Assembly: GCA_006503475.1 (NCBI GenBank) | Contig: RSEH01000292.1 | Span: 1 to 54,554 of the forward strand | Source: Stentor roeselii | Taxonomy: Eukaryota; Ciliophora; Heterotrichea; Heterotrichida; Stentoridae | DNA: 54,554 nt | Direction: 5' to 3' | Shown: in pieces, positions 2,007 through 21,125 of the stretch | How positions within the stretch are numbered: position 1 is the first letter of the stretch | How the letters are laid out: every line of letters starts with the position of its first letter | Made by a program: the position numbers and the translations under genes | The notes under the pieces: generated by a model | What the model was told of the DNA's origin: nothing | The model's database searches: none | Seen by the model: only the letters and a program-made list of their open reading frames with translations

Positions 2007-2013
2007 ATTATAT

Positions 2014-2388
2014 CTAATAATCCAAATCAATCCTATTAAAGATCGGGGTAATATTTCTAGAATGAACTCTAACTTTCATTAAAACTTCATTCTTATTCTT
2101 CTTCGCACTTGTAACTCTTTTCCTTTCAACTCTTTTCCAAGGAGGTACTGGGACCAGTCCTTCAATAGCAAGAGCAGGGTGTCTCTTTGGTGGTTGACTG
2201 GAAACCTTCGCATTTTGATCCTTTCCTGGCTTAACTTCTTGTCTATGAATTGATTTATAAAGACTTAGAAACATTCTTTTCTCTTTGATTTTCTGAGGCT
2301 GAGGAGTGGTTGGCAAGGAGATGGTTTTTAAGAAGTCGAACTTGGGACTTTCTACACGTTTTGAAGTGTTTAAAGCAGTGATTCGCAT
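2014..2388 (-). CDS. Small basic hypothetical protein
   Basis: 124 residues, strongly basic, rich in Lys, Arg and Pro (…PPKRHPALAIEGLVPVPPW, then RVERKRVTSAKKNK). No signal peptide, membrane segment or domain is seen. It is wedged between two genes on the same strand: its ATG is 12 nt after the stop of the pseudokinase at 2401-4146, and its TAG is 7 nt before the next ATG. No GT…AG of 15 or 16 nt is present that would join it to either neighbour, so I list it separately. The alternative is that it belongs to a neighbour through a longer or atypical intron, or that it is chance. Function unknown. Confidence 0.4.
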   Translation of the reverse strand: MRITALNTSKRVESPKFDFLKTISLPTTPQPQKIKEKRMFLSLYKSIHRQEVKPGKDQNAKVSSQPPKRHPALAIEGLVPVPPWKRVERKRVTSAKKNKNEVLMKVRVHSRNITPIFNRIDLDY

Positions 2389-2400: not shown

Positions 2401-4146
2401 TTATATTGAGCTAATTCTAAGTTTTTTCACTATTTCTGCCATTGTAGGACGATTTTCTGCTGGAATACTGAGACAAGTGATTAGTAAGGAAATAAGTTCC
2501 TCGGGTAAAGGCAAACTTTCGATAAGAGGTCGCTTTTTGTTTTTTATTATTTCTGAATGGATTTGCTCTGAAAGTTCTAAAATGTTAAAACTTGTGGTTT
2601 TTTTTTGGAATTGGAATAGTTCAGGAGTTAGAACTCCGGAGTAAGGGTTAAGTTCTGTGAAGAGACTTATGAAGGTCACTGCCCAGCTCCAGACATCTGT
2701 GAAAAAACCTGCGGATCTTGAAATTAGTAACTCGGGATCGGTATACATTAGAGATGAATAACTGAAATGAGTTATTCTTGAAGATTTTGTCGCGTATTTC
2801 ATGTTAAGTAGTTTTCCTTTTGTTTTATTTGAGATTGCTATGGTCTTTGGGGTGATGTTTAGATGATAGATGCCTTTTGAATGGATTGATTGAAGACACT
2901 CAGCAATGTCTTTCATGATTTTTAATTTTTGATCAGTCGTCATTGACATGAACTGGTCTTGAAGTAGCTGCCCTCTTAAGTCCTCGCAAACAATTCCAAT
3001 TTTATGTCCAAACTTTAAAAGTCTAATTGGAGTGACCAAAAACCCACTATTCTGACACTCAAGTGTAAGTTGATACTCACGTTCAACTCTCGAGTTTTCA
3101 TTAGAAACAGGAAACTTTAACAAGACTTTCGACCCATTTAAAAGTTCATTTTCATATAAGGTATAAAAGTTACCTTCATCAATTTTTGATATTTTTGGGT
3201 TTTCATTGTATTTTAAATTCTTTAAAGGGAGAAAATCGTGAGCTGCTGGTGCAGGTGAAATATTCAAGCTTATTCTTTTCAGAATTTCATTTTTCAGGTC
3301 GAATTCAGTTAGATTTAAACTGAAATACTTATCAAACATTCCCTTATTTTGAAGAGCAGGGGCTAAAATCAATTTTTTCTCATTCTTGTTTTCGAAGTAC
3401 ATCAGCAAGTTCATCGGATATCTCTTAAGGTAAAGATCCATTCTATCTAGATCCATAATGAACCTGTCTATAATTGACTCAAAGTCTTGAGGAATTTTAC
3501 AAGTTCTCAGTTTATTTTCAAGTAAATCTCCTGGGTTAAAGTAGTATTCCGAGCTCATGTCATAATAAAAAACTTCACTAAAGTCAAAAATATCAGACCC
3601 TTTATATTTTTTCAGCTCTTTACAGACTTTAACAGTTTTTTCATCAGTTTCCATGACTTCTTCACACAAACAGTCTATCAACTCGAAATCACAGTCAGGG
3701 CAAGGTTCATCCAAGTCCTCCAGTTTTTCCATCAACTGATAAAATTCTGAAATAAGGGCCTTGACTATTTGAATGATGAAATCTTTATGAAAAGATTTGT
3801 CGATTATGTCAGTTTTAAATGAGTGAAAGATGCAAGTTGAAATTACATCTGCCTTGTCTTTCAATTTCTTCAAATGACCGAATTTCAATTTTTGATTGAG
3901 TTTCATGAAGTTACGATGGGAAATCTGTGATGTTTTTAGACGGTCTATTTCAGGCCAGATGTGAATGTAGTAACTTCCAGGAAGTTCTTTTACAAGCCAT
4001 TGACAATCGCCTAGGGTTTCTTTTAGAACTTTATCTTCGAAGGTTAGTGTGCATCTAAAGGTGTTTTTGTTGCTGCCTGGTATTGTTACTTCTTTCACCC
4101 TGTAAGGCGAGGTGAGGCTTTCTGAGAGTTCTTTAAAGTCTAGCAT
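2401..4146 (-). CDS. Pseudokinase of a local CxxC-kinase family
   Basis: 581 residues. The N-terminal half (about 1-290) is shared with the kinase at 19170-21125 and carries a Cys knuckle, C-x2-C-x6-C-x-C (CPDCDFELIDCLC), possibly zinc-binding. The C-terminal 270 residues have a kinase fold that is catalytically broken. The beta-3 Lys is kept (K344, KVLLKFP). The HRD motif reads HLN (428-430), so the catalytic Asp is Asn. DFG is unrecognisable (LNMKYA), and the Gly loop is reduced to DEGNFYTL. The structural DVWSWAVTF motif of helix F and the NRPTM motif near the C-terminus survive, so the fold is probably intact. I infer a non-catalytic partner or decoy of the active paralogue. It starts at the only suitable ATG (4146) and ends TAA. 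The next gene starts 12 nt on. Confidence 0.75.
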   Translation of the reverse strand: MLDFKELSESLTSPYRVKEVTIPGSNKNTFRCTLTFEDKVLKETLGDCQWLVKELPGSYYIHIWPEIDRLKTSQISHRNFMKLNQKLKFGHLKKLKDKADVISTCIFHSFKTDIIDKSFHKDFIIQIVKALISEFYQLMEKLEDLDEPCPDCDFELIDCLCEEVMETDEKTVKVCKELKKYKGSDIFDFSEVFYYDMSSEYYFNPGDLLENKLRTCKIPQDFESIIDRFIMDLDRMDLYLKRYPMNLLMYFENKNEKKLILAPALQNKGMFDKYFSLNLTEFDLKNEILKRISLNISPAPAAHDFLPLKNLKYNENPKISKIDEGNFYTLYENELLNGSKVLLKFPVSNENSRVEREYQLTLECQNSGFLVTPIRLLKFGHKIGIVCEDLRGQLLQDQFMSMTTDQKLKIMKDIAECLQSIHSKGIYHLNITPKTIAISNKTKGKLLNMKYATKSSRITHFSYSSLMYTDPELLISRSAGFFTDVWSWAVTFISLFTELNPYSGVLTPELFQFQKKTTSFNILELSEQIHSEIIKNKKRPLIESLPLPEELISLLITCLSIPAENRPTMAEIVKKLRISSI

Positions 4147-4220
4147 ATTTATTCTAATAGAATTTTTAGTTAAGTTTTAAGTTCATTTATCAACTAGGGT
4201 AAAAATTTTATTGGGTTATT

Positions 4221-4598
4221 CTAGATAAAATTATCGTAATTGTTAAATGCCAAACTTTCGTTTGATGATCCTTCACCTAGGTTAATATTTTGAGTTTCCT
4301 CCTCTTCTTCATTCTGAGAACGAATATTATCGATCTCACCAAGGACTTCAACTTCTCGATAAGAAGCAGGTTCTGGATATTTAGTCTCCTCGTTTGCATA
4401 GTCAGAAACTAATTCATCAAAATTGACTTCAGCGAATTTCCATCCATTTTGAAATTCTGATAAATGTTGACTTGATTCGCTAATATTTTTCAGGTTTCTA
4501 ACAAGATTTGGATTTATTTCTTCTAGATTGGACTGGCTTGAAGCTAATGTAGAGTCTGTTTTTCCTCTATTAGAACTGTTGAGTTTTTCATTATTCAT
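4221..4598 (-). CDS. Small acidic Ser/Asn/Glu-rich hypothetical protein
   Basis: 125 residues, low complexity, rich in Asn, Ser and Glu with a run of five Glu near residue 100. It has no hydrophobic segment and is predicted to be disordered. It lies between two kinase-family genes on the same strand, with gaps of 74 nt and 79 nt. It resembles neither and has no recognisable homologue. Clean ATG and TAG. It could be a real short protein or a fortuitous frame; the spacing and a 125-codon open frame in AT-rich DNA favour real. Confidence 0.45.
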   Translation of the reverse strand: MNNEKLNSSNRGKTDSTLASSQSNLEEINPNLVRNLKNISESSQHLSEFQNGWKFAEVNFDELVSDYANEETKYPEPASYREVEVLGEIDNIRSQNEEEEETQNINLGEGSSNESLAFNNYDNFI

Positions 4599-4677
4599 TA
4601 ATATTCCAATCGAAAACTTAGAAAATTATCAGGAATGATCATCTTATCGATAGTTATTAATGTTGTTTATTATTAAA

Positions 4678-7143
4678 TTAAAAATTTTCTAAGGTCAAAT
4701 ATTGCTCTTGATACCTTCTCGTGATGTAATATTCGGATTCAGTTGTGTCTAATTCAGTCAATGATTCCAAGTTGAAATCTGAAAATAATGAAATTTCTAA
4801 ACTATTATATTCGGATTCAGAACATTCGGTGATTTTTGGATTATCGCTGGTAAATGGAATGGCATTTACATTGTTATGAATTATTTCAGATGAATAATCA
4901 GTATTCGAAAAATGTTCTTTATATCGTAAAATATTGTTTTTTTCTCCAGGTTTTGTATTAATTATATTGAAATCATCAATTTCTTCGAATTTAAAGCTAT
5001 TTTTTTGTTTTTTATAGAAATAAAACTTTTTTAATCTGTTCCACACAGACTTGATCTTTTTTAATATGAATTCTTTATGAAATCTTTCTATAAATAATAA
5101 ATAATACTGATTTATGCTGAAAAAGAAATGATTTAGAGTAGATTCATTGATTATTGATTCTGTGAATTTTTTAGATTTTCCTGAAAGTTTATCTAAAGAA
5201 GTAAAATTATAATAGTCCTGAGATACTGTTAATGCAGTATCTTGTGTTGAGAAAGTATCATCCTGAGAGTTACTCAAGCATAAAAATTCAACTGAATTTC
5301 CATTAAAGTTCATAAATTTCTTAAATAATCCGATAACAAAAATCCCTAAATTTTTTGATAGGCGATAGGAAAAAAGTTTTTTTTTCTTAACTTCAAAAAA
5401 AATTTTTTGAATAGAGGAAAGTTTTTCCAAGCCTTCCTCGTTTCGATCTGATAGAAAGTTATTCGTATCGATGAGATCTTTATAAGGTTTAAGTTGCATG
5501 AAAATATTCACAAAAGCGAAAGCCAAGCTCCAGACATCCACAGGTTTTCCAGGATTATTTTTCTTCAAATAATTAGGATTGGTATATTCATAACTAAACC
5601 CAAGACACTGGTTGATAGACTCTTTTTCAACAGCAGAGCCAAACAAAACAATTTTTGATTTTCCATTGTACCAAATGATATTCGAAGGTTTGATATCCTG
5701 GTGCACGTAGATCTGTGCATTCATATGAGAAAGTCCCTGAGCCACTTGGGTCATTGCTTGAATTTTCTGTTGAAGAGTCATTGAAATCATGTTATTCTTC
5801 AAGCTTTTGCCTTTTAATAGTTTCATAAACGCGCTAAGTTTTACCAGGTCTTGACTTTCAGATTTTATTTCTAAGACCCTGCAGACCTCAGTGAAACTTG
5901 GATGTTTTAGTTGTTTTAATTCATAATACTCGTATTCTAGTCGCAGTCTTGACATCAAGGCACTTTCTTTCTTTAAATGAGGGATTTTCAAAGCACACTT
6001 TTGTTTAAATTGTTTTTGTGAGTTAATTAAATGGTTAGAATAAACGTTTGCGAAGCTACCTTCTCCTAGTTTCAATGAAGTATCTGTTACTTTACTCTCA
6101 ATGAAACTCTGAAGATTGATGAAATTTTTATTCTTGAAAGTCTTTTTATTTAGGTTTGATAAGACAGTTTCATAGTCATTCATTATGGTTTTTTTATTTT
6201 GAATTGAAAATAATTCAAGTTCTTGCTGATCAGATGAAAAATTTGTAAAAAAATATTTTTTTAAATCGCTCTTTGTCCCTAGACAATGATCCAGATAGAA
6301 GTCCCTTATGGTCTCCTTTTCAATTGAAAATATTAGAATATTCATTGGTAATATACTGAAGTACAACTGTCTATCATCTACTTTCGCAAGAAAGATCTCA
6401 AAACGAAGAACCGTCTCACAAGTTAATAATAAAAACTTTGAGTTGTTGAATAACAAGCCCTTCACCTTGAATAAATAATTTTTATTAGTTTCTGAGTAAA
6501 AAGGTGAGCCAAGGTAAAATCTTTCTGCGTATTTTTCGAAGATTTCAACATATTTTAAGACTTTCGTTTTGAAATTCTCGTCTTTTCCCCAGAAACATTC
6601 AAAATTTTCAACCTTTGAATTTTTATATATTTTTTTCTGCTGTAGTGCGAAAGCTTTGCTGTTTTGAATTGATTCAGACTTGTGATTCAGACAATGAAAA
6701 TATTTGAAAACTTCACATCTGAATTTTTCATTTATATAAGTTTTCTGAAGTGCTGAACATGTCTGATAGATTAACAAAAAGGTTTTAAAGGCAATTTTTG
6801 TTATTTTCTTTTTACTCTTAGAGAAGTACTGATCAACTTGGTTCAGGCACCTCGTGTTTGAGAGAATTTCTTTGATGAAACTGATAAAAAATATCCTTTT
6901 AAGGTCTTGGTTTAAGTTTTTGTATTTTTTTTGCAAATGTTCTGAATTGGTTATTATCAAATCGTAGCAACAAGATGCTAAGTCCTTGTTGAAGTAAGAT
7001 TTGCTTATAAAATTTGGGATTTCAAGAGTTTTCGAGATTTGGCTGGGTTTTAATTTTAATAATTCTGATAATATGCATATGATGAGTAGCTGTGCTTTCT
7101 GCAAACTTGTTTTTGCTGTTTTTGTTGTCTTACTTTTTTTCAT
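4678..7143 (-). CDS. Kinase-family protein with DFG Asp lost (probable pseudokinase)
   Basis: 821 residues. From about 265 to 590 it is closely similar to the kinase at 19170-21125, for example KLGEGSFANVYSNHLINSQK and ALKIPHLKKESALMSRLR. The beta-3 Lys (K386) and the catalytic-loop Asp (HQD, 481-483, followed by IKPSN) are kept. The DFG triplet is LFG (500-502), so the magnesium-binding Asp is missing. The Cys knuckle of its relatives is also eroded: the position equivalent to FDCIC reads FECFW. It has a family-specific N-terminus of about 170 residues and an extra acidic C-terminal tail of about 190 residues not found in the paralogue. It is probably inactive, though some kinases work without a full Mg site. 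The 489-bp stretch upstream presumably holds its promoter. Confidence 0.75.
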   Translation of the reverse strand: MKKSKTTKTAKTSLQKAQLLIICILSELLKLKPSQISKTLEIPNFISKSYFNKDLASCCYDLIITNSEHLQKKYKNLNQDLKRIFFISFIKEILSNTRCLNQVDQYFSKSKKKITKIAFKTFLLIYQTCSALQKTYINEKFRCEVFKYFHCLNHKSESIQNSKAFALQQKKIYKNSKVENFECFWGKDENFKTKVLKYVEIFEKYAERFYLGSPFYSETNKNYLFKVKGLLFNNSKFLLLTCETVLRFEIFLAKVDDRQLYFSILPMNILIFSIEKETIRDFYLDHCLGTKSDLKKYFFTNFSSDQQELELFSIQNKKTIMNDYETVLSNLNKKTFKNKNFINLQSFIESKVTDTSLKLGEGSFANVYSNHLINSQKQFKQKCALKIPHLKKESALMSRLRLEYEYYELKQLKHPSFTEVCRVLEIKSESQDLVKLSAFMKLLKGKSLKNNMISMTLQQKIQAMTQVAQGLSHMNAQIYVHQDIKPSNIIWYNGKSKIVLFGSAVEKESINQCLGFSYEYTNPNYLKKNNPGKPVDVWSLAFAFVNIFMQLKPYKDLIDTNNFLSDRNEEGLEKLSSIQKIFFEVKKKKLFSYRLSKNLGIFVIGLFKKFMNFNGNSVEFLCLSNSQDDTFSTQDTALTVSQDYYNFTSLDKLSGKSKKFTESIINESTLNHFFFSINQYYLLFIERFHKEFILKKIKSVWNRLKKFYFYKKQKNSFKFEEIDDFNIINTKPGEKNNILRYKEHFSNTDYSSEIIHNNVNAIPFTSDNPKITECSESEYNSLEISLFSDFNLESLTELDTTESEYYITRRYQEQYLTLENF

Positions 7144-7632
7144 TTTATTATTAGTCCTTCAAGTAAAAATTTTAAGTCATTTTTACTGTATTTATTGTCG
7201 ATATTTACTATTTTAAGATGTTTAATATGATTATTAAATTTTTGATAATCTAAGTATTTAAATAGTGATATCTCCTTCAGTTCATTTATAAGAAATCTAA
7301 TTATTAAAATCTTAAGTAAGATTTTTCAGAAATTGAAATGCTATTCCAAAGTTAATTTATTAATCTTACTTAATTTGCAACTACTTGTTTTATAATTATT
7401 TTAAATTTTTGGTTTATAAAAGTATTTTGATTATAGGATCTAATCCAAGAAACATAATATTGAGAACCTAAAGCAGTTAAACACCTAATTTTAGTTGAAC
7501 ATTAATCTTAATAATATCTTTACCGAACCAAAATTTTTATTAAGAAAAGTACCAGGCTCTGATTACCTCCAAGCACAAAAAAAATCACATGAACTAAACT
7601 AATACTAATAAAACTATTCAAATAACTAAAAT
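7144..7632. other. Intergenic stretch, AT-rich
   Basis: 489 bp between the start of the kinase-family gene at 4678-7143 and the stop of the cysteine-rich receptor gene, both on the minus strand. It must contain the 5' control region of the former and the 3' end signals of the latter. No distinct motif, repeat or RNA gene is seen. Confidence 0.6.
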
Positions 7633-10600
7633 TTATCCATTTGTTAGCTTCTTGACCTTCTCAACTCTCCTCAATTTAACCTTAATAATAATACTTTTAA
7701 TATCCTTCACAAGAATAATAAAAGCAACCAAATAATGACTGGCAAAGCAAATCATTAAAACCGAAATAAAAATAACATCAAAAGTCTCTTCAGAGAGAGC
7801 ATCAGGTCTTAACCACATCACCAAAACTTCAGCAAAAATAATCGAAATAAACCCTTGAGTGACAATACTCGAGACCATAATAATCTTATCTTTAAAAGGT
7901 CTAACAATCAGCAGATAAAAAAACAGAACACAAGAAAAAACCAAATTCGAACTTCTTTGAAAAACAGGAAATTCATTGAAACTGACTTGAGAAAAACCAT
8001 AAGCAAGTCGATTTAAGGTGAACAAAGGATAATAAATCATGCACTGAAATCCTTGATCTTGTTTTAACTCAGTGATAACAGAGCTGAACCTTCGAACAAA
8101 AATCACATCAGCTGAATTTTCGATTTTTCCGTAGTTGAGAAACAAGCCGAAGAGAAGGATAAAAGGAGTTAAAATAAAAAAGGTCTAAATGAAAGATACA
8201 AGGTAAATATAAGAGAAAGTATTTGAAACATGGAACCAAGGACCTCCTGTCAAGGCATCCTGCTTAATAATTACGGATTGAGAACTGATTATCGCGAAAA
8301 CTCCGAAACTTAAGTAACTTTGTATCCAGAACCTGATAAAAACATCGTATCTGTACTCATGAAGCTTTTCTTCAAATTTCTTGCTGAATTTCCCTAATTT
8401 CATCGAAGATACCAGGTAAATAAAAGGCAAAAAACATAAAAAAACTATTAAAACCGTCAGATCTGTTGCAATATTCAATAAAAACACAGATGTTTCTATT
8501 CCTATAATTTGAGCTTGCTGATAAGGAGGTTCTGACAAGTTCTTATCCAAGTAATCCTCAAGTAAATTAGGAATCATTCCAAATGAACCGATGGAAGTGC
8601 AGTACTGAGTCATCACCGGTGTCAAGGCATCTTTCGCAAGAGGTAAAAAAGAAATCACTTGAATAGTGTTCAGCAGCGCCCACGCTGCTGAAGGGTTAGA
8701 AATGAATGAAATTGAAATAGAAGTTGAACCTCCTACCTGATTAACAGATTTTGACTTGGAAATGACTGATTTAATGTTTTCGTCGATGTAGTCCATTTTA
8801 AATAGTTTCAATTTGTATTCTAAGGAAAAAAGAACTTCATTTGAGATACTTAATAAGTGATTTTTGAACTTCAGATTTAGAATTGATCCTTCTTTCACGT
8901 GGTCTTTAAATGAAGGAATTATCATGTACTTTGAATTTGAAAGGGAAAGGAATTTGAAGGAGGATTTTTTTATGGGGAGATGGACTGATATGTTTGATAA
9001 ATTGAGTGATTCGTTTAGTGCTGATGTGAATTTCAACAATAGTCGATTGGATTTACTCACTTTTATATTCAGGTAGAAGAAACTAGGTAAACATTCAGTT
9101 TCACTCATTTGATATCCAATATCACAAACACAACTGTGATTATAAAACCGTTGATATTTTCCGCATACTGGATCACAATATCCGTTTTTAAGTTTATAAC
9201 CCTCTTGACATGAACTACACACAACTCCTTGGGTTATCGATATATCCTCAATACAGCTTAAACAAGTTTTAGGACAGGCTTTACAATCTTTATTATTTCT
9301 TAAGTAGTACCCTTGAAAACATTTACATACTCCGTTGACTATTACTGAATTTTTTAATCGACACTCAGTACAATTATCGAAAGAAGTGCAATCATCACAA
9401 TCGTCTTGACATTTTAGGCATTGATTTGAAGGTAATTGAGAATCAGGATAATAGCCTTTCAGACATCTGCATTTACCATTTTTATCTAAAAATGTGTTTG
9501 AAAATTTGCATTTTGTGCACTTTGATTGGCTTTGGCATGTTTCACATTCTATTGAACAACTTTGACATGTTAAAATATCTGAGAATTTTTTGTAAAAGCC
9601 TTCGAAACATTTACATCTTCCAGTTTCATCTAAGTATGAGTTTTCGGTTTTACATGATGTGCAATTTTGTGAATTTTGGCATGTTTCACATTCTTCTAAA
9701 CAGCTGAGACAAGTAAAATTTTCTGAATCATCAGAATAAAAGCCTTTAGAGCATTTACATCTTCCACTTTCATCTAAGTATGAGTTTTCAGTTTTGCATG
9801 ATGTACAATTTTGTGAATTTTGGCATGTTTCACATTCTTCTAAGCAGCTGAGACAAGTAGGATTGACTGAATCATTAAAATAAAAGCCTTTAGAACATTT
9901 GCATCTTCCAATCTCATCTAAATATGAGTTTTCTGCTTTACATGATGTGCAATTTTGTGAATTTTTGCATGTTTCACATTCTTCTAAACAGCTGAGACAT
10001 GTAAAATTTACTGAATCATCAGAATAAAAGCCTTTAGAGCATTTACATCTTCCACTTTCATCTAAGTATGAGTTTTCAGTTTTGCATGATATGCAATTTT
10101 GTGAATTTTGGCATGTTTCACATTCTTCTAAACAGCTGAGACAAGTAAAATTTACTGAATCATCAGAATAAAAGCCTTTAGAACATTTACATCTTCCACT
10201 TTCATCTAAATATGAATTTTCTGCCAAACAAGATGTACAGTTTAATGAGTTTCTACATGTCTCACATTCATTCAAACAACTAAAACATTCTATACCTTCT
10301 ACTCCAGAATCATAAAACCCTTTAGAGCATTCGCACCTCCCCGTTTGATTTAAGCTCATATTAACATTTTTACAAGAAGTGCAACCAAAAAAATCTTCAC
10401 AAGTTTCACATTCTTCTAAACAACTTAAACATTCAAACCCCTTAAAATACGAAGCATAAAACCCATTAAAGCACTTACATCTTCCAAACTCATCTAAATA
10501 CGAGTTATAATCCTTACACGATGTGCAATTTAACGGATATTTGCATGTTTTGCATTCATAAATGCAACTCAAGCATTCATCCTTATCCGAGTAAAACCCT

Positions 10601-11955
10601 AACTGATTCGGTTTATTCAAAAAGTACCCATCAATGCAAAGACATCTCTGATTGACAGGACTTCCTGAAACACATTTAAAACAAACAGTCTTTGACAAGC
10701 ATTCAGTGCATTCAACAGGACAAGGTTTACAAGAGTTGCTAACAACAATAGAAGTTTCTGAATAATACCCCGAAATACATTTACATCTTTGAAAAACATC
10801 AAGTTTAGCTAAAGGTTCAATGCAAGAAGTGCAGTTATTCCCTGACAAGCAAGTCCGACATTCATCTAAACATTTCGCACATTGCAGATAAACACCATAA
10901 AAAATCTTATAATTGTAAAATCCTTCATTACAAGTGCAGTTGGTGGTTTTATATGAAGAATTCCAGTCATAACAATTTAAACATTCTTGGTTCTTTGTGC
11001 ATGAACACCCTGTCGCGCAACATCCTTGCCCAGTCCCTTGACAATCAGCAGTGATCTGCAAAGAGAGATTATTTAAATAGTCTATGCATTCAGCCTTTCC
11101 GCTTAAATCTAAAGAACAAGACTTAGAAGGACATAAACAATTCAAATAGACGGAACCTTTGCATGGAGACTTGCTGCAAACTTGACCTTGGGCATTTTGG
11201 GATATGTTTGATGAATTCGGAACACATCCTATACCAAGGTCTTCTAAATTCATTGATGGGTTGCAACTGCATGTTCCTAGGTAGCAGGTGTTGGAGTTTG
11301 TGAAATTTATGTAATTTAGGTGCTGGTTTGCACCTGGAACAATTAAAAAATTCCACATGAAGAATTTTATTGATGGATGGACGTTGAAGCCAATTGTTGA
11401 ATTTTGACAGGGTTGGGTTAAATCTATTGCTTTGCTTAGAGAATTTTTGTAGTGAATGTAGTCATTTGATCTGAAGATTAGAGTGTTTTGGCTGATTTCG
11501 TAAGAGAGCAGCATCCATTTGTCTAAATAGAAGATACAGGTTGAAATCAGTAACGGGTTTTGGGAATACAATGATTGACCTTGAAAAGCCCAGAGATGGA
11601 AGGTGGTAGAATTATGCCTGTGAATACCTATAAGATAAGAAGTACAATATCGGACAAATATCTGCCCAATTGAATTATTCATGCTTATCCAAAAAAGTAT
11701 TGTCACTGGATTAGGAAGGGTAAAAGTCTGAGAAAGTTCATTGGGTGGAAGTTTAATAGATTTTTTTTCTTCCATGAATAGACCTCGATCAGTCATGGTT
11801 GCAACTTGGGTGGTATCTGCAAGAGAGAGACCATTAATGGCATGCCGTCCATTAAGTGAATAGTCAAAGAAAACCTTTCCGTAGTTCTTCCAAAACTTAT
11901 ACTCAACAACCTTCGTTGCGAATGAAGAAGCGATTAAAACAAAAACAAAAGCCAT
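7633..11955 (-). CDS. Large cysteine-rich surface receptor with multi-TM C-terminus (one 15-nt intron)
   Basis: Two exons (11955-8200 and 8184-7633) give 1435 residues. An N-terminal signal peptide (MAFVFVLIASSFA) is followed by a region of about 200 residues resembling a concanavalin/LamG-type fold. Next comes a long growth-factor-receptor-like cysteine-rich region of repeating CxxC…C…CxC units (about 300-950). A non-Cys beta-rich spacer follows, then about seven hydrophobic helices in the last 330 residues. Such furin/GFR-like ectodomains on polytopic proteins are common in ciliates. The role as a surface receptor or adhesion protein is inferred. At least five 48-residue units around the middle are nearly identical, indicating recent expansion or homogenisation. 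Without removal of the intron at 8185-8199 the frame stops in a membrane helix; splicing restores a continuous hydrophobic segment (SYIYL-TFFILTPFILLFG). Ends TAA. Confidence 0.85.
8185..8199 (-). other. 15-nt spliceosomal intron
   Basis: Minus-strand sequence GTATCTTTCATTTAG, phase 0. It begins GTA, ends TTAG and has an A at position 10, as do the other two introns here. If retained, it places an in-frame TAG between two membrane helices of the receptor; removed, the frame continues for 183 more codons with four or five further helices. Confidence 0.9.
9560..10275 (-). repeat. 144-bp tandem coding repeats
   Basis: About five consecutive 144-bp units (48 codons) inside the cysteine-rich receptor gene. 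Each encodes CLSCLEECETC…SQNCTSC…ENSYLDESGRCKC…GFY with only scattered substitutions. More diverged copies of the same unit flank them on both sides. Confidence 0.85.
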
Positions 11956-12501
11956 TAATTATAACTTATAGAAGGTTTAGATGATAAGTTACTAAAATTT
12001 TGAAAGATCTTCTCAATATCTTAAAGATTAGTAGACTTTTGTTATTTGACAATTCTTCTTGAATTTCACAGTTTGTTTTAAAAAAAAAACCAAACCAAAT
12101 TCTTTGGTTAAACTAGAATCACTGATGTTTAATGAAGGTCTTAGAATGGTTTTATATTGCAATAATACCTTGATTTCTGATTTCAAATAATAAATTATTT
12201 ATTAGAATCTTTAGAATGATTAGATCTGGTTCTATCATATTTTCTCCAGATAATATTTCTCAAACAATTATAATTTTATGATAATGAGACTTAATTATAT
12301 TTCTGAGTATTTGTGATGGTCAAATTATCAAGATTCAAAATAAGACGGTATTGTTTCTTCAATAAATTATATTAAATTATTATCTCTAAGTTTCTCAAAC
12401 ATTCCACAGATTATGCAAAATAATAGTGCGTAAAACTTCAAAGTTAAATATAATTATATAAAAATTCTCTGAAATGATTAAAAACTTCTACCCACATCTA
12501 A
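11956..12501. other. Intergenic stretch with a small inverted repeat
   Basis: 546 bp between two minus-strand genes, upstream of the cysteine-rich receptor. It is AT-rich without open frames. A perfect 7-bp hairpin, AACCAAA-TTC-TTTGGTT, lies at 12093-12109, about 138 bp upstream of the receptor ATG. Its meaning is unknown. Confidence 0.5.
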
Positions 12502-14529
12502 CTAATCTAAAAATTCAATGAACTCTGCTTTTAAATAGCTGTACAAACTAATCCAATCAGCAGTTTCTCTAGAATTATTAAAAACAGGTTCAAAACTTAA
12601 AGGATTAAAGCTCCAAACACGAATCCCATCATAAGAATTACCAGAAACCAAATACTTATCATCCATTGTGAATAAAACTTTCCAGATGGGCTGTGAATGT
12701 CCTTCAAATATAGCATGAACGTTTTTAGCTCCTATATCCCAGACAATAATCTTTAAATCTGATCCTCCAGAAACAGCGAAATTCACCTTACTTGAGATTT
12801 TCACAGAATTAACTGATCCTTGATGTTTACTTAACACAGTTTCATATAACAAAAGATTCAAATTCCAGATTAATATTTTTCCATCGAAATCACCTGAAAT
12901 CGCGATCGAGTCATCTTTGGCAACATCAACACAAATAACCGAATTTTTATGTCCATTTAGTTCAACTTTAGCGAAGTTTTTGCTAATATCCCAGAAAATA
13001 AGATTTTTTCTTACTCCTTCAGATGAAGATATCAAAAACTTACTACAAGATGAGAAACAAGTAGCATAGACCTGCCCTTCATGTCCATCTAATACAACAA
13101 CATCGGCATTTTGCAAGACATCAAAAACCACAACACACTTAAACCATCCATAAGCAATAAAAAAGTCTTTGACATTTTCAGACCCAGTGAAAAAAGGTTG
13201 AGTTCCTAAAAAGGCTTGACATTTCAAAGAAGTCAAATTTGTGATTCCAATCATAGAGTCTCTAGATGCTGAAAAAATTAACATGTTGAAGACCTTGACA
13301 GAAAAAACAACATCTTGATGTACATGGAGCCGATGAGTTATACTCAATGACTTGATCTTCCACAACAGAATGTCTTTATCTTCAGACCCAGAAACAAGGT
13401 TGGCTTCGCCAGGGGTCACTACGAGTGACCTGACAGGTGCACTATGTCCAGCAAGGACACCATTATTAGAAAAATCCAGGCAATTCCAAACTTTTATCTT
13501 CGTATCTTCTGAACCTGTAAAAATCTTTTTTTTTCTATTCGCGAAGGCAATGGTCCAAATGGTTTTATCATGAGCTAAAACAGACTGTTGTCTAATGAAA
13601 GGAATTGAAACCATATCCCATAGTTCCAAGTATCGATTAGTCGCAGTGATCATCTGATAATCCCCAGTTTTCAGTAAAAACGTGATAATATCTGAAGTGA
13701 TAATCTTTTTCACTATGTTCTTATGGAAGATACTCCATATAATGATTTCATTAGCAACACTTCCAGAAACAATAAAATTCTTACTAAAAAAATCCAGACA
13801 ATAAACCGCGCCTTGATGTCCAGAAAAAACAGTCTCTAGTTGAAAAGTTGATAAATTCCAAAGGATTACTTTTTTATCTAAAGACCCACTGGCTAAAAAA
13901 CCTGAATCGCCTGACAACGACAAACATTGCACCTGGCCTTTATGCTCAGTGAAGCAAGTTGTTTGTTTCATTGTTGCCAAATCCCAGATCCGAACTGTTG
14001 AATCCTCTGAACCTGTAAAGGCGCTGTTCATGTCTGGAGAGATCTCCATGCAGATAAACCCACCGTTGTGAGTCTTTAGAAATTCTTGCTTTGCCCAAAG
14101 TTTTTGATCAGATTGGTCAGGGTCGAGACTTGTCAGGATCTTGGAGTAGAAGTTTCGGACTGAAAATAAAATTGAAGGCGAATTTAAGTATTTCAATGAT
14201 TTTTCGATGTTTAATTGTTTTGCTTTTTCGAGGGTTGATGAGTCGGGAAGGACTTTCCAGCTTAGGAGCCTTTTGAAGAGACGGATTTTGGATTTGATTG
14301 AATTTAATAAGGAAATGTGGCTCTGCTTTATTGAAGATAGAAGGGATTCTGTTTTTTGAATGAGGGATTTTTCGAGGAATTTTAGTTGTTGGAGTTTTTC
14401 GATTAGGAGGTTGATTTGGGTGTGCCAGTCTGTCTTGTCGGTGTACTTTTGGAGTGGTTTTGATATTATTGTCAGTAATTCATCAGGGTATATTGCACTG
14501 CCTATTTCATTTGTATTGGGAAAATCCAT
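12502..14529 (-). CDS. WD40-repeat protein, two beta-propellers
   Basis: 675 residues. The first 150 are helical and probably coiled-coil (INLLIEKLQQLKFLEKSLIQ…). The rest is about 12-14 WD40 repeats, enough for two propellers. Typical repeats read HKGQVQCLSLS…LASGSLDKKVILWNL and HSAPVRSLVVTPGE…VSGSEDKDILLWK, and there is a second set such as HEGQVYATCFS and HKNSVICVDVAKDDSIAISG. There is no enzymatic or membrane domain. Proteins of this build act as scaffolds, for example in ciliary or trafficking complexes, but I cannot assign an orthologue. Single exon, clean ATG at 14529, stop TAG. Confidence 0.85.
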   Translation of the reverse strand: MDFPNTNEIGSAIYPDELLTIISKPLQKYTDKTDWHTQINLLIEKLQQLKFLEKSLIQKTESLLSSIKQSHISLLNSIKSKIRLFKRLLSWKVLPDSSTLEKAKQLNIEKSLKYLNSPSILFSVRNFYSKILTSLDPDQSDQKLWAKQEFLKTHNGGFICMEISPDMNSAFTGSEDSTVRIWDLATMKQTTCFTEHKGQVQCLSLSGDSGFLASGSLDKKVILWNLSTFQLETVFSGHQGAVYCLDFFSKNFIVSGSVANEIIIWSIFHKNIVKKIITSDIITFLLKTGDYQMITATNRYLELWDMVSIPFIRQQSVLAHDKTIWTIAFANRKKKIFTGSEDTKIKVWNCLDFSNNGVLAGHSAPVRSLVVTPGEANLVSGSEDKDILLWKIKSLSITHRLHVHQDVVFSVKVFNMLIFSASRDSMIGITNLTSLKCQAFLGTQPFFTGSENVKDFFIAYGWFKCVVVFDVLQNADVVVLDGHEGQVYATCFSSCSKFLISSSEGVRKNLIFWDISKNFAKVELNGHKNSVICVDVAKDDSIAISGDFDGKILIWNLNLLLYETVLSKHQGSVNSVKISSKVNFAVSGGSDLKIIVWDIGAKNVHAIFEGHSQPIWKVLFTMDDKYLVSGNSYDGIRVWSFNPLSFEPVFNNSRETADWISLYSYLKAEFIEFLD

Positions 14530-15780
14530 TTCGTTTTTAAGATAATATAAACTCTTAGTTTGTAGATAGTTTTTAAGGTATTTATACAGATTAGCTTTTA
14601 TTTATTGAATAGGTTTGTTGAAATTGATGGAATCAATCAAGGTATTGAACTTTTTTTATTTTATAGATGATAATATGAAATTTAGATATTAGGATTTAGA
14701 TCTATATTCAAGATTAAAAGTAAAGAAACTTTAGATTAACTATATTCCTCTTTAAAGTTATAATGGAAATCATCTTTAGGTAAAATTTACATCAAGCTAA
14801 TACCCTTTCAAAGATATTAGAAATAAAACAAACTTTAAACCAGTAATAATCTCATTAATCTTATAGTTTTATGAAAATTTTTAGTTTGTTCAAATAATTA
14901 TTAAAATAGCTTTTCTAGTGTGTGTAGATCTTTTAGGTGTTCGATGGTAGAATAAGTAGGAAATTCATTCTATAAAAATATTCTATTATATCAAGTTGTA
15001 ATACTTGTAAAAGCTTTAAATATTCAACCGAATTATTCATCAGATTTTATTTTCTTTATTAACTTTTACGTATTTATAAAGCTTTTCAGAATACATAAAA
15101 TACTTCAAAATTATTATAAAAACATAATATCATTGAAGGTTCTTGAGAAATAAAACAAATATAAGAGTATTTTTTAAGAAATTTTAATCGAGAAGAAAGT
15201 TCTTTGCATAAGAATTTAAGTCTCCAATGAATAATCTCTTTTTTACTCCCCATAACGGTTTAAGCACTGGGCATGATGTTATCAAAACTATTTTTATTTT
15301 TAATATAATTGTTATATGATAATATTGGGCTTAGAACTAATTTTTATTAAGTACACTTGAAATTAGTTGTAAATTTCATACTATGTTTAAACAATCACCA
15401 AGGTTGTTAAATTGTTGAGATTTGTGATGAAAGTAAATTAAATCATTAATTTCTAGATATTGAGCAATTTCAAAAGCACTGATTTAATTTGATTTTAGAA
15501 GTTATTTAAATTAATCCTAGCTCTAGATTTTTTTGATCAACCCTTAAACCAATATCAGAAATGATCAAATATAAAGTATAATCTAAAAATCTTATAAAAT
15601 TCTCTACGTTGAAGTAAAATCTTTATCCATTAATACTACTCATCTTTCATTCTAATTCATTAACCACTTTTATAACAATCAAACATAAACTAGCATCGAA
15701 AAATTTCACATAATTTCTAGTATTCAAGTATGATATATAATCCTCTTACTACTAATTATTCATTTCTATTATAATTTAAA
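14530..15780. other. Divergent intergenic region with a diverged direct repeat
   Basis: 1251 bp between divergently transcribed genes, very AT-rich and with no open frame of note. The 220 bp next to the plus-strand gene contain two diverged direct copies of about 114 bp (starting near 15564 and 15678). They share blocks such as ATCAAA-ATAAA, AAAAAT, TACTACT and CATT. No RNA gene is recognised. Confidence 0.5.
15564..15780. repeat. Diverged tandem direct repeat upstream of a gene start
   Basis: Two copies offset by about 114 bp, matching over most of their length with many substitutions. The second copy ends at the ATG of the gene at 15781. It may be a duplicated promoter segment; recognised by eye only. 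Confidence 0.4.
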
Positions 15781-17649
15781 ATGTCCGGGGGGCTTCTTTA
15801 TATTTCTACAGATAAAACCACTTTTTCATCAAATGATTTGTTCCCAAGGCCGTCTCAGCCACTTGCTTCACCTGTAAAAACTCGAAAATCAATACGAGCA
15901 CTCAGTGATAGTGAAGAAGAAATTTCATACGAATTTGAAGACAAGAGGCAAAGTCTAAGGTGTAAAAGGAAGAAAAGAGCAAACCTACTGCATGAGAAAG
16001 AGTTAAAGCCAGTGCTAAAAAAGATGTGTAACCAGAAAGTCTATATTCCTGCAGAGAATGAAGAAGTATTCATAGAGAAAGTGATTGAAAATTTAACTCC
16101 AAAACTAAATTCAGTCATTAGTGAACGTTTTAACGCTAGGAATGACCTTCTTCTTGAAAAAATATCTCAATTATCACTTGAAAATACTTTACTGAAAGAA
16201 AGGATCTTCATGCTGGAAGAACAGCAAAAAAGTAAATTAGAAGAGATTTTTAGCTTTTTTCAGGTATGTGTTGAAACTACAGCTGAATCAATTTACGGTA
16301 AAACAGATGAAGTAAAAGAGTTGATTTCGACAACTATAAAAAAAATGGATGAAATGAAAAATATTCTAGAAAGAATATCAACTTCATTGGAAGGATGTGC
16401 TAAATTTAATAGATTAAGGATCAGAAAGTGTTTTCAGGCTTTCAAAGATAATAAAAATGAGAAATCAACTGAAAGACCAGAAAATAACAAATATTTTGAA
16501 AGAAAACATGAAGATAGTGAATATAATTTTAATCATAGCATTTCGATACTCGAACTTGAAGGAGATATCATTGAAGCCAACGAAATATATTTGAGTGGAA
16601 AAATCACTCAACATAAAAAATGGATAATCACGAATGAACTTGAGCAGCCACTTCATTGCATTCGAGAAGTATCAAATTTTCTGAATTATTATACACAAAG
16701 TCACTTTAATTCACAGTACAATCATAATTTTCACAAAAGACTTTTTCATTATACTGGGTACAGGAAAATAAGTTTTATTAACTCTTCAAATTATTTATTC
16801 TTGAAAAATAGCTGGCAATGGAAACCAAATTTTGAAAAAATGAGCAAATATCAGCAGCTTAAAATAATTCTTTCATTGAAAATTTACGACCCTATCACTG
16901 CAAATTTCATTCATAACTACGGGTCGATAAACCGTTTAAGATTTATTCTAACTTTAAAACATTTTCCATATCAAGTAACATATATCAATTATCTTAAGCA
17001 AGAAACTACAAAATGGAAGTCCACCATCGAAATTGTGATTAAAGATTTAGGCTTTGGATTGATTGAAAAAAGACTAAAAAAATTTATTCTGAAGGGAAAA
17101 ACATTCAAAATTTTTAGGAAAGGTGAAAATACCCTAGGATTTAAATCCATGAATGAAACTGATGAAGAACTAGATAAAAACTGCTCAAGTCAAATAAAGA
17201 AAAATAAATCCAACTATTTTAATAAATCGACCACTGCAATCGTTACCAGTACCTCTCAGAAGAATCTTATAAATGAAGAAAGAGAAAATATTTCTGCATC
17301 TTCTCAAAAATTGTATTTAGTCCTTGGAGGTTTTTCTTTAGACTCTAAAAAGCATTATTTAAAACAAAAAAATGAGAAAATGTCTGGTCTTGAACTTCAA
17401 TCTGAAATATTTACGCAAAACGCAAAATCGATTTTAAAACATGAGATGACTAATCAGGATAACTTTATCGATAGAGAATATGAGGAAAATGCAGGAAATT
17501 CTAGATATGGGAGATTAACAACTAAAAGCAATTCTTCTGGGAATTTGAGTATTTATCATTCAAGAATTTTCGGAGAAGTGACTATTATAGACCAGCATAC
17601 CGATAAATGGAATAAAAATCTTGAAAAATGGAAAAAATCGACGTGGTAA
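15781..17649 (+). CDS. Hypothetical coiled-coil protein
   Basis: 622 residues, unrecognised. Residues 1-110 are Ser/Lys-rich with basic clusters (KRKKRANLL) that could serve as a nuclear localisation signal. Residues about 105-200 form heptad-like coiled coil (…LLLEKISQLSLENTLLKERI…). The middle is rich in aromatic residues and Asn, with no known domain. The C-terminal 200 residues are Ser/Asn-rich and probably disordered. Single exon, ATG at the first Met after an in-frame stop, stop TAA. A diverged direct repeat lies immediately upstream. No neighbour suggests a function. Confidence 0.7.
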   Translation: MSGGLLYISTDKTTFSSNDLFPRPSQPLASPVKTRKSIRALSDSEEEISYEFEDKRQSLRCKRKKRANLLHEKELKPVLKKMCNQKVYIPAENEEVFIEKVIENLTPKLNSVISERFNARNDLLLEKISQLSLENTLLKERIFMLEEQQKSKLEEIFSFFQVCVETTAESIYGKTDEVKELISTTIKKMDEMKNILERISTSLEGCAKFNRLRIRKCFQAFKDNKNEKSTERPENNKYFERKHEDSEYNFNHSISILELEGDIIEANEIYLSGKITQHKKWIITNELEQPLHCIREVSNFLNYYTQSHFNSQYNHNFHKRLFHYTGYRKISFINSSNYLFLKNSWQWKPNFEKMSKYQQLKIILSLKIYDPITANFIHNYGSINRLRFILTLKHFPYQVTYINYLKQETTKWKSTIEIVIKDLGFGLIEKRLKKFILKGKTFKIFRKGENTLGFKSMNETDEELDKNCSSQIKKNKSNYFNKSTTAIVTSTSQKNLINEERENISASSQKLYLVLGGFSLDSKKHYLKQKNEKMSGLELQSEIFTQNAKSILKHEMTNQDNFIDREYEENAGNSRYGRLTTKSNSSGNLSIYHSRIFGEVTIIDQHTDKWNKNLEKWKKSTW

Positions 17650-19169
17650 TCGATAAAAGTAAGAAATAACTAAGTAATTATATACTAATAAAATATAGCA
17701 AGTAACATATTATATGAGTAACCTAAATATATTTGAATTTTTTCGATTGATACATATTTACGATCAATGTTTACTTAACCTTCTATCTAATGTTCTAATT
17801 TTAAACTATTCAGAATATTCAAAATAGAGAGAGAACTATTTTCAAAGATTATTTAATAGTTCAGACATTCTATATTCTCATCACTACATTCAAATTATCC
17901 ATGAGATATCTTAATATGAAAAGTTGAGCTCCTACACAGTTATTTCATACCTTCTGGTAAATCCCCAACACTAAATATGGTTCTATTGTTTTTTTTTAAA
18001 TAATTTCTTCCAATTTTACCTGAAAAATCATAATGATATTTTCGAGGTCCTATCTTTATCAATGTTTATTATCATAATTGAAGTAGTTTTAAAAAGATAT
18101 CGAAGCTCTAAAATAGGATATAAAGGTTTGGTATTACTTTTAGTAAAAGCTAAGACTTTTTCGATGAAACTATGACTTAATTTTTGTCGCATCAGCTGCA
18201 GTAGTTGCTGTTATAAAATTTTCTTCTATTGGATTAAAAGTTTTGGCCAAACAACTTACTGGGTGAAAGTAGATTTTAGATTAATTCATAGAGTTTTTAT
18301 CTTTAGGGAAAATATTTCATTTTATCAACATCAGGATGATATGGATCGACTAGGCTTGGGGATGGTTTGACAGGGACTCAAGGTGTCTAGGATGAAGAAA
18401 TTCTATTCATGAAATGAAACCTACTTGCAGTTTCTATTAATAAGAAAATATTTGAATAAGATTATATTTTTTTTGAGGTATTAATGAAAGTGATTGAAGT
18501 AAGGATTTCATAGAATTAATTTCAAACGAATCAATGAATTGATGCGAAATTTATAATTCCTATATCCTGAAAATTAAAACTTTATGGGATTTTTAAAAAG
18601 GGATTGTGCGCAGGCCGGCCGGGGTATAAGCTCTCTATTATAATCTCTTAATTCAATAAAATCAGAATTATAATTAAAATCTTTGAGAATATCAAATATT
18701 TAGCTTTCCACAGCAATATCAATCGAATCATATAATTAAATTATGATTAAATTGATTATCAAGAGCTAATTAATAAACTTAAATTTTACTATCTATGAGA
18801 TAATATTGTAAGAAAGATTTGGAATAAACTTGAAATGATATTGATATATCGTATTGATGATTTAAACTTTTAGGAATAAAAGTACATTAACAATACTATT
18901 TAATGTATATATTTATAGTTCTAGTAAATGCATACTTGATGAAGATTCAAATAATCAATTTTTTTGAAGTTGAACGGAGTATTACAAGATATCAGATATC
19001 ATTTATTATAAGTCCACATACAACTTTAACAATTTCATTGAATAATGGAATCTTTATAAAAACAGGAGTTTATTCTACATAATCCTATAATATGTATACT
19101 CTATAAAAACTCAAAATATCAGGAAACCAATGATTAAAATCTCAATGAGCCTCTTGGAAAATTATTTCT
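17650..19169. other. Long intergenic region with a short GC-rich patch
   Basis: 1520 bp between two plus-strand genes. It is mostly AT-rich with short broken frames only. Around 18340-18400 the base composition is more even, but no gene or structured RNA is recognised. A sharply GC-rich patch containing the palindrome GGCCGGCC lies at 18604-18632. Confidence 0.6.
18604..18632. other. Isolated GC-rich patch (contains GGCCGGCC)
   Basis: About 20 of 29 bases are G or C, against mostly A/T on both sides. It contains the 8-bp palindrome GGCCGGCC followed by GGGTATAAGC. It has no coding context. It could be a functional site, a foreign insertion or an assembly or cloning artefact. Confidence 0.5.
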
Positions 19170-21125
19170 ATGTTTCAAAAAGTAATTTATGAGTCTTTGC
19201 ATCAAGCATTTATAATGAAAATTAACTTAGAGAGAATCATAAAATCAATGCGGGTAAACTGGACCTTCGATGGCTTTATGAATCATTCGACTACAGATAC
19301 ACACAATGAAATAAGTTTTCATATAAACGTAAATGAAAATATACCCAAATCAAAAATCACAAAATTCATTTGCATCATTTCTGTGAATGAAGACTTAAGA
19401 CTGGATCTTTACCCTGAATTCGAATCGAAAATAGATATTTCAATAATAGAAATAGAAAAATTGAACAAAGATCTAAAATGCGGGTGTGTTAAATTATCAT
19501 CAAAAAAAAAAAAGAATTACATTCACTACTTTATCCCAAATAAATGCTTCAACCCAGAATCTTTATTGGAAATAATCCAAAAAACTCTTGAAAAGTTTGT
19601 GGATTACTTCGAAATATTTCTTGATGATCAAGACGATATTTGTGGTTCAAATGAAAGTAAAGTTATCAAAAGCACAAAAGGTTCAATTCAAATCGAAAAA
19701 AAATACAAGTTTCAAGAAGAAGAGATCTGTGAGGAATGCGAATGTGAAATCTTCGACTGCATCTGTGAAAAAGACGAGAGATTTAAAAGAGAGAACTTCA
19801 TGGTGATTCAGATCTTTAAAAAATACCCTGAAGTCTTTGACATGGATTCGAATTTTTACTCAGAATCTTACAATATTTATGCATATGAGCCTAAGAACTT
19901 ACTTGTTAACAACTTGAAGTCTTTTAAAGTAACTAAACAGACACTTGAAGATTTTGAAAGCTTACTTGCTAAACTTGAAGCTAATAAGTTGTACTTCAAA
20001 AGATTACCGATTAGCATCCTCATGTGTTCTATCAAAAATAAGACCATCAGGCACTTCTTTCTAGCTCCTTGTCTAAGAACAGCAAATGAATTCAACCATT
20101 ATTTTGATTCAGATTTTCCATCTGATCCTCAAGAACTTGAATTATTTTCAATTAAAACTAAAAAGACCATCATGAATGACTTCTATAAACTTGTCTCATC
20201 AAACCTAAATAAAAAGACTCTGAAAAATGAAGATTTCATCAATCTTCAGAGTTTCACTGAAAGTAACGTAACAGATACTTCATTGAAACTAGGAGAAGGT
20301 GGCTTTGCAAACGTTTATTCTAACCATTTAATTAACTCACAAAAACAATTTACACAAAAATGCGCTTTAAAAATCCCTCATTTAAAGAAAGAAAGTGCCT
20401 TGATGTCAAGACTACGAGTAGAATACGAGTATTACGCATTAAAACAACTGAAACATTCAAGTTTCACTGAGGTCTACGGGGTCTTTGAAGTAGAAGATGA
20501 AGATCAAAAAAGCCTGATAAAACTCGGCATCTGTATGGAACTATTAGAAGGCAAAAGCTTGAAAGAAAACGTGAACTCAATGACTTCTCAAGAGAAAATT
20601 CAAGCAATGACCCAAGTGGCTCAAGGCCTTTCTCATATGCATGCACAGGGCTACGTGCACCAGGATATAAAACCTTCGAATATCATTTGGCACAACGGAA
20701 AAGCAAAAATTATTGACTTTGGCTTTGCTGTTGAAGAAGAGTCTATTAATCAGTGTATTGGGTTTAGTTATGAATATGCAGATCCTAATCATTTGAAGAA
20801 AAATAGTCCTGGAAAACCGGCAGATGTATGGAGTTGGGCTGTTACTTTTGTTAGTATTTTTATGAAACTTGAACCGTATAAAGATGTTGTTGATCGTAAT
20901 GTGTTTAGAATTGATCCAAATGCGAAGGGACCTGGAAAAATTTCTATTATTGAAGGAATTTATTTGGAACTTGAAGTTAAGAAAAAAAGACCTTTTTTTT
21001 ATAGATTGGAAAATGAGTTAGGGATTGTTATTATTGAATTATTGAAGAGTTGTATGAACTCTAACTATCGGAATAGACCACAAATGAGTGAAATTGCTAA
21101 AACTTTAGAAAGATTAGAGTCTTAA
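19170..21125 (+). CDS. Ser/Thr-type protein kinase with N-terminal Cys-knuckle domain
   Basis: 651 residues, the apparently active member of the local family. The N-terminal part (about 40-340) has a C-x2-C-x6-C-x-C knuckle (CEECECEIFDCIC) near residue 190. The kinase domain starts near 370 with LGEGGFANV; the beta-3 Lys is K401 (ALKIPHL). The hinge is CMELLEG. The catalytic loop is HQDIKPSN (497-504), with Gln in place of the Arg of HRD, followed by DFG at 516-518 and DVWSWAVTF. The activation segment ends ADPN rather than APE. All residues needed for phosphotransfer are present; a non-RD loop suggests no activation-loop phosphorylation switch. The substrate is unknown. A run of 12 A at 19502 encodes Lys. 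ATG at 19170, stop TAA, single exon. Confidence 0.85.
   Translation: MFQKVIYESLHQAFIMKINLERIIKSMRVNWTFDGFMNHSTTDTHNEISFHINVNENIPKSKITKFICIISVNEDLRLDLYPEFESKIDISIIEIEKLNKDLKCGCVKLSSKKKKNYIHYFIPNKCFNPESLLEIIQKTLEKFVDYFEIFLDDQDDICGSNESKVIKSTKGSIQIEKKYKFQEEEICEECECEIFDCICEKDERFKRENFMVIQIFKKYPEVFDMDSNFYSESYNIYAYEPKNLLVNNLKSFKVTKQTLEDFESLLAKLEANKLYFKRLPISILMCSIKNKTIRHFFLAPCLRTANEFNHYFDSDFPSDPQELELFSIKTKKTIMNDFYKLVSSNLNKKTLKNEDFINLQSFTESNVTDTSLKLGEGGFANVYSNHLINSQKQFTQKCALKIPHLKKESALMSRLRVEYEYYALKQLKHSSFTEVYGVFEVEDEDQKSLIKLGICMELLEGKSLKENVNSMTSQEKIQAMTQVAQGLSHMHAQGYVHQDIKPSNIIWHNGKAKIIDFGFAVEEESINQCIGFSYEYADPNHLKKNSPGKPADVWSWAVTFVSIFMKLEPYKDVVDRNVFRIDPNAKGPGKISIIEGIYLELEVKKKRPFFYRLENELGIVIIELLKSCMNSNYRNRPQMSEIAKTLERLES

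Follow-up and report, generated by a model that had tools for sequence, protein, structure and literature searches.

Where protein kinases that have lost catalytic residues lie near an intact relative, do the losses mark stages of one process or separate events, and what might the altered copies still do? A 54,554-nucleotide stretch of Stentor roeselii DNA, contig RSEH01000292.1 (C222 below), raises this question; the window is this entire contig, from a genome with 44,391,514 bases in 522 contigs. It codes for three kinases, here called K24, K47 and K19 (Table 1), which a preliminary description had presented as one family caught at different stages of loss of function. In the explanation that best accounts for the locus overall, to which we assign a probability of about 0.62, a small kinase family expanded locally on this contig, K19 being its catalytically competent local copy, K24 an old pseudokinase and K47 a rearranged copy. 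The genome searches with the three proteins scored the best candidates only, and the family counts given below are lower bounds.

Family members and their catalytic residues

K19, K47 and K24 are paralogous kinases with open frames of 651, 821 and 581 codons, and all exceed the PF00069 (Pkinase) cut-off of 31.7 bits, scoring 125.8, 86.3 and 68.9 bits, respectively. Searches with each protein yield at least five knuckle-type members, namely these three and one gene each on contigs C179 (242907-244505) and C432 (97724-99049); the next relatives, C111 and C83, are devoid of the knuckle. The family layout is an N-terminal domain, a Cys4 knuckle, a middle region and a kinase domain, which displays HQD in the intact members. 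The knuckle, C-x2-C-x6-C-x-C, is complete in K19, K24, C179 and C432, which share 18-31% identity over the N-terminal region (N-region); by its pattern it is a putative zinc-binding site. None of the open-access titles and abstract openings listed mentions such a knuckle-kinase family.

N-terminal queries return family members only: residues 1-237 of K19 recover K19 and K47, and residues 1-310 of K24 recover K24, K19, C179 and C432. An N-region profile gave a single match among the PDB sequences (E-value 1.4), and a YbjN- or chaperone-like fold, considered for this domain, was dropped, as Pfam and PDB sequence searches lent it no support. The sharing of the N-terminal part by all three paralogues, as originally described, does not extend to the start of K47. 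The kinase domain is indeed common to the trio, and the very N-terminal domains of K19 and K24 are weakly alike (score 54 against 34.4±6.0 for shuffles, with a maximum of 61 in 300), but the first 155 residues of K47 stay at shuffle level against the N-terminal domains of K19, K24, C179 and C432 and were rejected as a diverged version of that domain.

A pseudokinase is defined as lacking at least one of the β3 Lys, the HRD Asp and the DFG Asp in the part of PMC4718504 on which we draw for all statements attributed to it here. None of the three is missing from K19, which, as noted before, combines Lys401, HQD and DFG with the complete knuckle C187/C190/C197/C199. K24 lacks both Asp residues and K47 that of DFG. 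The motifs reported earlier for these two are likewise borne out: K24 has the knuckle, HLN and, in place of DFG, NMK, and K47 has the Lys, HQD, LFG and a broken knuckle with one Cys of four, the equivalent of K19 C197. To these we add that K24 has also kept the β3 Lys and the αC Glu. Both catalytic Asp residues are present in K19, C179, C432, C111 and C83, hereafter the five intact members. The C179 kinase (L003 1273-3120) has DLG instead of DFG, with the Asp retained. In pairwise alignments to K19, 28 of the 30 best loci from the K19 search, a set that includes K19, K47 and K24, possess both Asp residues, and K24 and K47 therefore stand out as its two exceptions. The β3 position is Lys in 24 of these 30 and N, A or a gap in the other six. 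A 31st locus outside this set (L038), found with the K24 query, has HRN and DFR.

Unrooted maximum-likelihood trees split K19, K47 and K24 from C179, C432, C111 and C83, with ultrafast bootstrap values of 93 for the kinase domain and 94 for the N-region. Because the trees group the trio, and the five intact members retain both Asp residues, catalytic Asp residues were lost separately in K24 and in K47. The original proposal of a single family with repeated catalytic loss is hence supported; that of stages along one process is not, as the two losses are independent.

K24 is the older case. Its kinase domain is 23-33% identical to those of the five intact members, and it retains, besides the β3 Lys and αC Glu, the Asp-x-Trp of αF and the Arg-Pro of αI; between APE and αF, 20 of 38 residues are identical to K19. 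K24 has lost 11 of the 30 sites at which the five intact members are all identical, seven of these 11 in three motifs (two Gly of the Gly loop; the HxD Asp with the catalytic-loop Lys and Asn; the DFG Asp and Gly) and the remaining four at A399, H429, G437 and G531, while 148 of 213 variable sites differ from K19. As a control, the five intact members were taken in turn, each at the 33 to 41 sites without variation among the remaining four, and had lost 3 to 11 of these. When sites invariant in C179, C432, C111 and C83 are used, the losses are 11/41 in K19, 20/41 in K24 and 18/39 in K47. On a fixed topology, the K24 branch measures 1.23 in the kinase domain (237 gap-free columns) and 0.87 in the middle region (149 gap-free columns, starting halfway through the knuckle). 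No significant acceleration specific to the kinase domain emerges: the median ratio to C179 and C432 is 1.61 for the kinase domain versus 1.18 for the middle region, a difference that is not significant (P 0.12, 100 bootstraps). K24 reads as a classical old pseudokinase that has retained several residues of the fold but not those of the nucleotide site, and it is predicted to be inactive. As it retains all four knuckle Cys residues and has lost catalysis by the same motif evidence, this one event suggests that knuckle and catalysis are separable.

Origin and constraint of K47

K47 is closest to K19 (71% identity in the kinase domain) and lies in inverted orientation. Homology to K19 begins at about K19 residue 170 and takes in the Gly loop, the β3 Lys and HQD; the end of the kinase domain, with the Arg-Pro of αI, is gone, and a tail of 206 residues of its own stands there. 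The divergence is lopsided. Branch lengths are 0.000 for K19 versus 0.42 for K47 in the kinase domain and 0.38 versus 1.10 in the N-region; at positions identical in C179 and C432 but different between K19 and K47, the loss is on the K47 side in all 13 cases in the kinase domain (none in K19) and in 19 cases against 6 in K19 in the N-region. Synonymous differences at identical-residue codons are 19/166 within K19 residues 315-535, compared with 18/53 upstream (Fisher p 0.0005) and 13/51 downstream (p 0.022), and the longest identical run of 46 nucleotides was reached in 5 of 2000 permutations. Because synonymous divergence is so uneven along the pair, we consider it probable that gene conversion overwrote the middle of an older K19/K47 duplicate.

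Pairwise, ω (the ratio of nonsynonymous to synonymous rates) is 0.55 over 554 aligned codons, with the poorly aligned N-terminal part included (bootstrap range 0.42-0.72). A codon model that grants both paralogues equal time, applied to K19 residues 183-632 with C179, C432 or K24 as the outgroup, separates the two: ω is 0.033, 0.174 and 0.243 for K19 and 1.018, 0.884 and 0.843 for K47, respectively. Equality is rejected with each outgroup (p 3e-7, 9e-4 and 9e-4), and ω = 1 for K47 fits with each (p 0.92, 0.54 and 0.37). In 40 simulations under equal ω, the mean estimates agreed and the likelihood-ratio test (LRT) statistic reached 4.6 at most, and the real data give 26.2 when C179 is the outgroup; 12 simulations with true values of 0.1 and 1.0 returned means of 0.13 and 0.90. 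Replacements in K47 hit 7 of the 28 positions that do not vary among the five intact members and 57 of the 208 remaining positions (p = 1). Since conserved sites have not been spared, the knuckle and the DFG Asp of K47 were lost under a general relaxation, and since invariant kinase sites changed as often as the rest, the loss of its knuckle says little about separable roles. Judged by these comparisons, amino-acid constraint on K47 is slight overall, at the knuckle and DFG too.

Its reading frame is another matter. Neither K47 nor K24 has an in-frame stop or frameshift. With 300 nucleotide differences from K19 in 446 aligned codons, K47 has no stop, and neutral placement of 50-100% of these differences creates on average 7.2 to 16.3; none of 12,000 simulated sequences (12 settings, 1000 each) was stop-free. 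The chance of a stop-free frame is 0/400 if half of the branch was neutral, 0.010 if a quarter was and 0.113 if a tenth was. The N-terminal part and the tail are open too, and their shuffles average 12.2 and 17.9 stops, respectively, with 0 of 3000 stop-free for each. Codon usage favors the tail (z 4.7, top of six frames) over the N-terminal part (z 2.6, with four of the five other frames higher), which leaves it uncertain where K47 truly begins. The preliminary description had held that dN/dS near 1, combined with a lack of expression, would expose the degenerate copies as plain pseudogenes. The ratio in K47 is near 1, but because 7-16 stops are expected and none is present, K47 is probably no plain pseudogene; its translation appears to have been maintained, its amino-acid sequence hardly.

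A companion gene behind K24 and other neighbors

Behind K24, on the same strand and beyond a reading frame of 124 amino acids (2014-2388), runs the frame that we call the companion gene. Besides itself, it has a single match in the 44.4-Mb genome, at C432:96989-97489 (E 1.8e-5); the reverse search with the C432 companion returns C222:1314-1784 (E 1.4e-5), with the next match at E 0.25. The pair scores 129 against 45.6±7.5 for shuffles, with none of 500 as high. The C432 companion (L005 649-1434) begins 24 nucleotides past the stop of the C432 kinase. The probability that a random match falls no more than 400 bp behind any of the other four family members is about 2e-5, calculated post hoc under uniform placement. 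This linkage of kinase and companion at two loci is new here. The C432 kinase falls outside the local group, which makes an ancestral pair probable, with K24 as its local heir; this reading requires a loss of the companion at C179. Thus, K24 may keep the ancestral cassette, and K19, devoid of the partner, catalysis.

The companion has no Pfam match. Profile comparison with kinases gives P 0.009 and a probability of 4.4%, in a register that is plausible, and its PDB matches are weak (best E 0.058), five of the six being kinases; pairwise comparison with seven kinases stays at or little above shuffle level (12 of 200 shuffles as high in the best case). A kinase-like nature of the companion is a lead only. 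A tiny intron joining K24 to the frames behind it is excluded for lengths of 15 and 16 nucleotides: in the survey described below, none of either length with flanking frames of at least 80 codons lies near K24. No genome relative was found for the open reading frame (ORF) at 4221-4598.

The setting agrees with the provenance. GT..AG introns of 15 nucleotides join long frames on the minus strand, GTATCTTTCATTTAG at 8199 and GTAAAGTAAATTTAG at 28861; they are the two of that length among eight candidates in a survey of GT..AG stretches of 12-25 nucleotides joining frames of at least 80 codons. Unusually small introns are mentioned in PMC9371601. The seven kinase genes that were read stop with TAA, TAG or TGA and are open under the standard code. 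The genes of the window are of eukaryotic type and further include those for WD40 proteins, a ubiquitin hydrolase and, at 24925-26661, a protein with the N-terminal domain of the centriole component SAS-6. Introns, stops and gene content fit a Stentor-like heterotrich ciliate.

Upstream of K19, the AT-rich intergenic region holds the very GC-rich element GCAGGCCGGCCGGGGTATAAGC (18610-18631), which is unique in the window when as many as 3 mismatches are allowed and unique in the genome at 0 mismatches. Just behind K19 is a 69-bp tandem repeat (21278-21476; 2.9 copies, 94% matches). It is followed by an ORF (21520-23964) with a below-cut-off match to the poly(A)-polymerase palm domain and an internal 42-bp tandem repeat (22777-23105). 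A Cys-rich protein (8185-11955) with 144-bp tandem modules (9593-10422) has a frame that runs into the ORF at 7633-8145 across a 15-nucleotide intron.

Table 1. Features of the K24, K47 and K19 loci in the window
Feature	Position	Strand	Basis
Companion gene, start uncertain, first ATG at 2006	993..2030	-	One genome relative, directly behind the C432 kinase
124-aa basic ORF between K24 and the companion; own gene or 5' part of the companion gene	2014..2388	-	No relative found in the genome
K24, 581 aa, putative pseudokinase with complete knuckle	2401..4146	-	ORF, Pkinase match, alignment
K24 NMK where DFG is expected	2797..2805	-	Alignment
K24 HLN where HxD is expected	2857..2865	-	Alignment
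K24 Cys knuckle	3664..3702	-	Alignment
K47, 821 aa, K19 relative with LFG, without knuckle, with ends of its own	4678..7143	-	ORF, alignment; ω 0.84-1.02
K47 C-terminal tail, 206 aa, in place of the kinase-domain end	4678..5298	-	No match elsewhere at E <= 0.001 among the matches listed
K47 part homologous to K19 (K47 aa 156-615)	5299..6678	-	Genome search with K47
K47 LFG where DFG is expected	5638..5646	-	Alignment
K47 N-terminal 155 aa	6679..7143	-	No other genome match at E <= 0.001 among the matches listed
K19, intact member (651 aa) with N-terminal domain, Cys knuckle, middle region specific to the family and kinase domain	19170..21125	+	ORF, Pkinase match, codon-model ω 0.03-0.24
K19 Cys knuckle C187/C190/C197/C199	19728..19766	+	Alignment
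Probable gene-conversion tract with K47 (K19 aa 315-535), limits set by eye	20112..20774	+	Low synonymous divergence
K19 β3 Lys401	20370..20372	+	Alignment
K19 HQD catalytic-loop motif (497-499)	20658..20666	+	Alignment
K19 DFG (516-518)	20715..20723	+	Alignment

Competing explanations and their implications

In the explanation that we prefer, K19 would most likely phosphorylate targets chosen via its N-terminal half, and K24 would most likely transfer no phosphoryl group and act instead as a scaffold or allosteric partner that bears the knuckle. K24 would then work by binding, probably together with the companion product, and may compete with K19 or hold partners of K19. K47, a rearranged copy, would have split off later from the K19 lineage, would probably have been re-homogenised in part by gene conversion, and would have shed almost all constraint on its amino acids, with the frame remaining open. 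It could serve a new role that tolerates sequence change or be a copy in the process of being lost, a by-product possibly without use. Several observations weigh against parts of this account. The paralogue comparisons come from one genome; the sole relative of K19 among the other genome contigs searched is in a bacterial metagenome-assembled genome (MAG), matching residues 373-570. No companion-type gene was found beside K19 or C179, and the cassette is therefore not general. For the kinase domain alone, the ω contrast keeps its direction and is significant with C179 only (p 0.0013; 0.15 with C432, 0.053 with K24). Outside the conversion tract, the ω estimates for K47 fall to 0.56-0.69 and differ significantly from 1 with one of the three outgroups (p 0.13, 0.097, 0.028). 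K47 has also spared the stretch from β1 to αC (K19 residues 357-427), with replacements at 6 of 71 sites versus 21 of 65 in the next block at similar synonymous change (Fisher p = 5e-4 for limits set after looking; 66/5000 in a permutation scan). K47 may thus not be wholly unconstrained.

This sparing also speaks for positive selection of K47 for a new role, for instance as an ATP-binding decoy, with an ω near 1 that mixes adaptive and purifying sites: residues 428-460 (K19 numbering) are replaced at 15 of 32 positions at similar synonymous change, the frame is open, both ends differ, and the Gly loop, Lys and HQD persist; a kinase can stay active without the DFG Asp, as CASK shows (PMC4718504). 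The estimates for K47 in the tract (1.27-1.39) do not exceed 1 significantly (p 0.29 to 1), invariant sites are unspared overall and the block limits were chosen after the fact, which leaves this idea unlikely. We regard it as quite improbable that K47 is a plain pseudogene still awaiting its first stop or frameshift and that K24 is an older one. An ω indistinguishable from 1, the unspared invariant kinase sites and the missing knuckle and kinase-domain end would all follow, but the absence of stops from the 446 aligned codons, from the 155-codon N-terminal part and from the 206-codon tail defies the simulations and shuffles above; neutrality confined to the last tenth of the branch would allow an open frame (P = 0.11), but ω should then be well below 1, and K24 remains open over 581 codons at its low identity to the intact members. 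The separability of knuckle and catalysis put forward earlier, as modules with distinct roles each lost alone in different copies, is possible though doubtful. It gains from K24, with four knuckle Cys residues and neither Asp, and from the retention of the knuckle in four of five family members despite their divergence; K47, however, lost both knuckle and catalytic Asp under relaxation, and K24, with a kinase part not significantly faster than its middle region, is one copy and hence one event. A bolder scheme, in our estimation decidedly unlikely, has duplication split two jobs, such that the cassette copy K24 lost catalysis but retained knuckle and companion, the partnerless K19 retained catalysis, the companion is a remnant kinase-like fold in a regulatory pair with K24, and the frame of K47, hardly its sequence, is selected.

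Pseudokinases beside active paralogues are a kind already known and a common route of signaling-protein evolution. About 10% of human kinases are without a catalytic residue, and for MLKL either relaxed constraint or recently evolved specialised functions have been considered (PMC4718504). Like the pseudokinases described there, K24 (without the HxD and DFG Asp) and K47 (without the DFG Asp) have a Pfam-recognised domain; unlike them, the K24/K19 family has an upstream Cys4 knuckle and, at two of five loci, a companion gene. K47, with LFG, an intact Gly loop and the β3 Lys, resembles in its motifs CASK, which lacks the DFG Asp, and BSK8, which has CFG (PMC4718504); it differs in an ω near 1 and in the absent kinase-domain end. 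The example of CASK further cautions that loss of the Asp alone is no proof of inactivity. Duplicated kinases are expected in a kinase-rich heterotrich, given the expanded kinome of Stentor coeruleus (PMC9371601); the portion of that account available to us mentions neither the knuckle family nor the kinase-companion pair. A general caution follows for paralogues with lost motifs: such losses need not amount to separable functions, as those of K47 belong to a general loss of constraint. On the positive side, the cluster places an intact kinase beside an old pseudokinase and a copy that is young and changing fast, so that the three can be compared within the same genome, and the companion gene offers a concrete guess at what the presumably dead kinase K24 may do.

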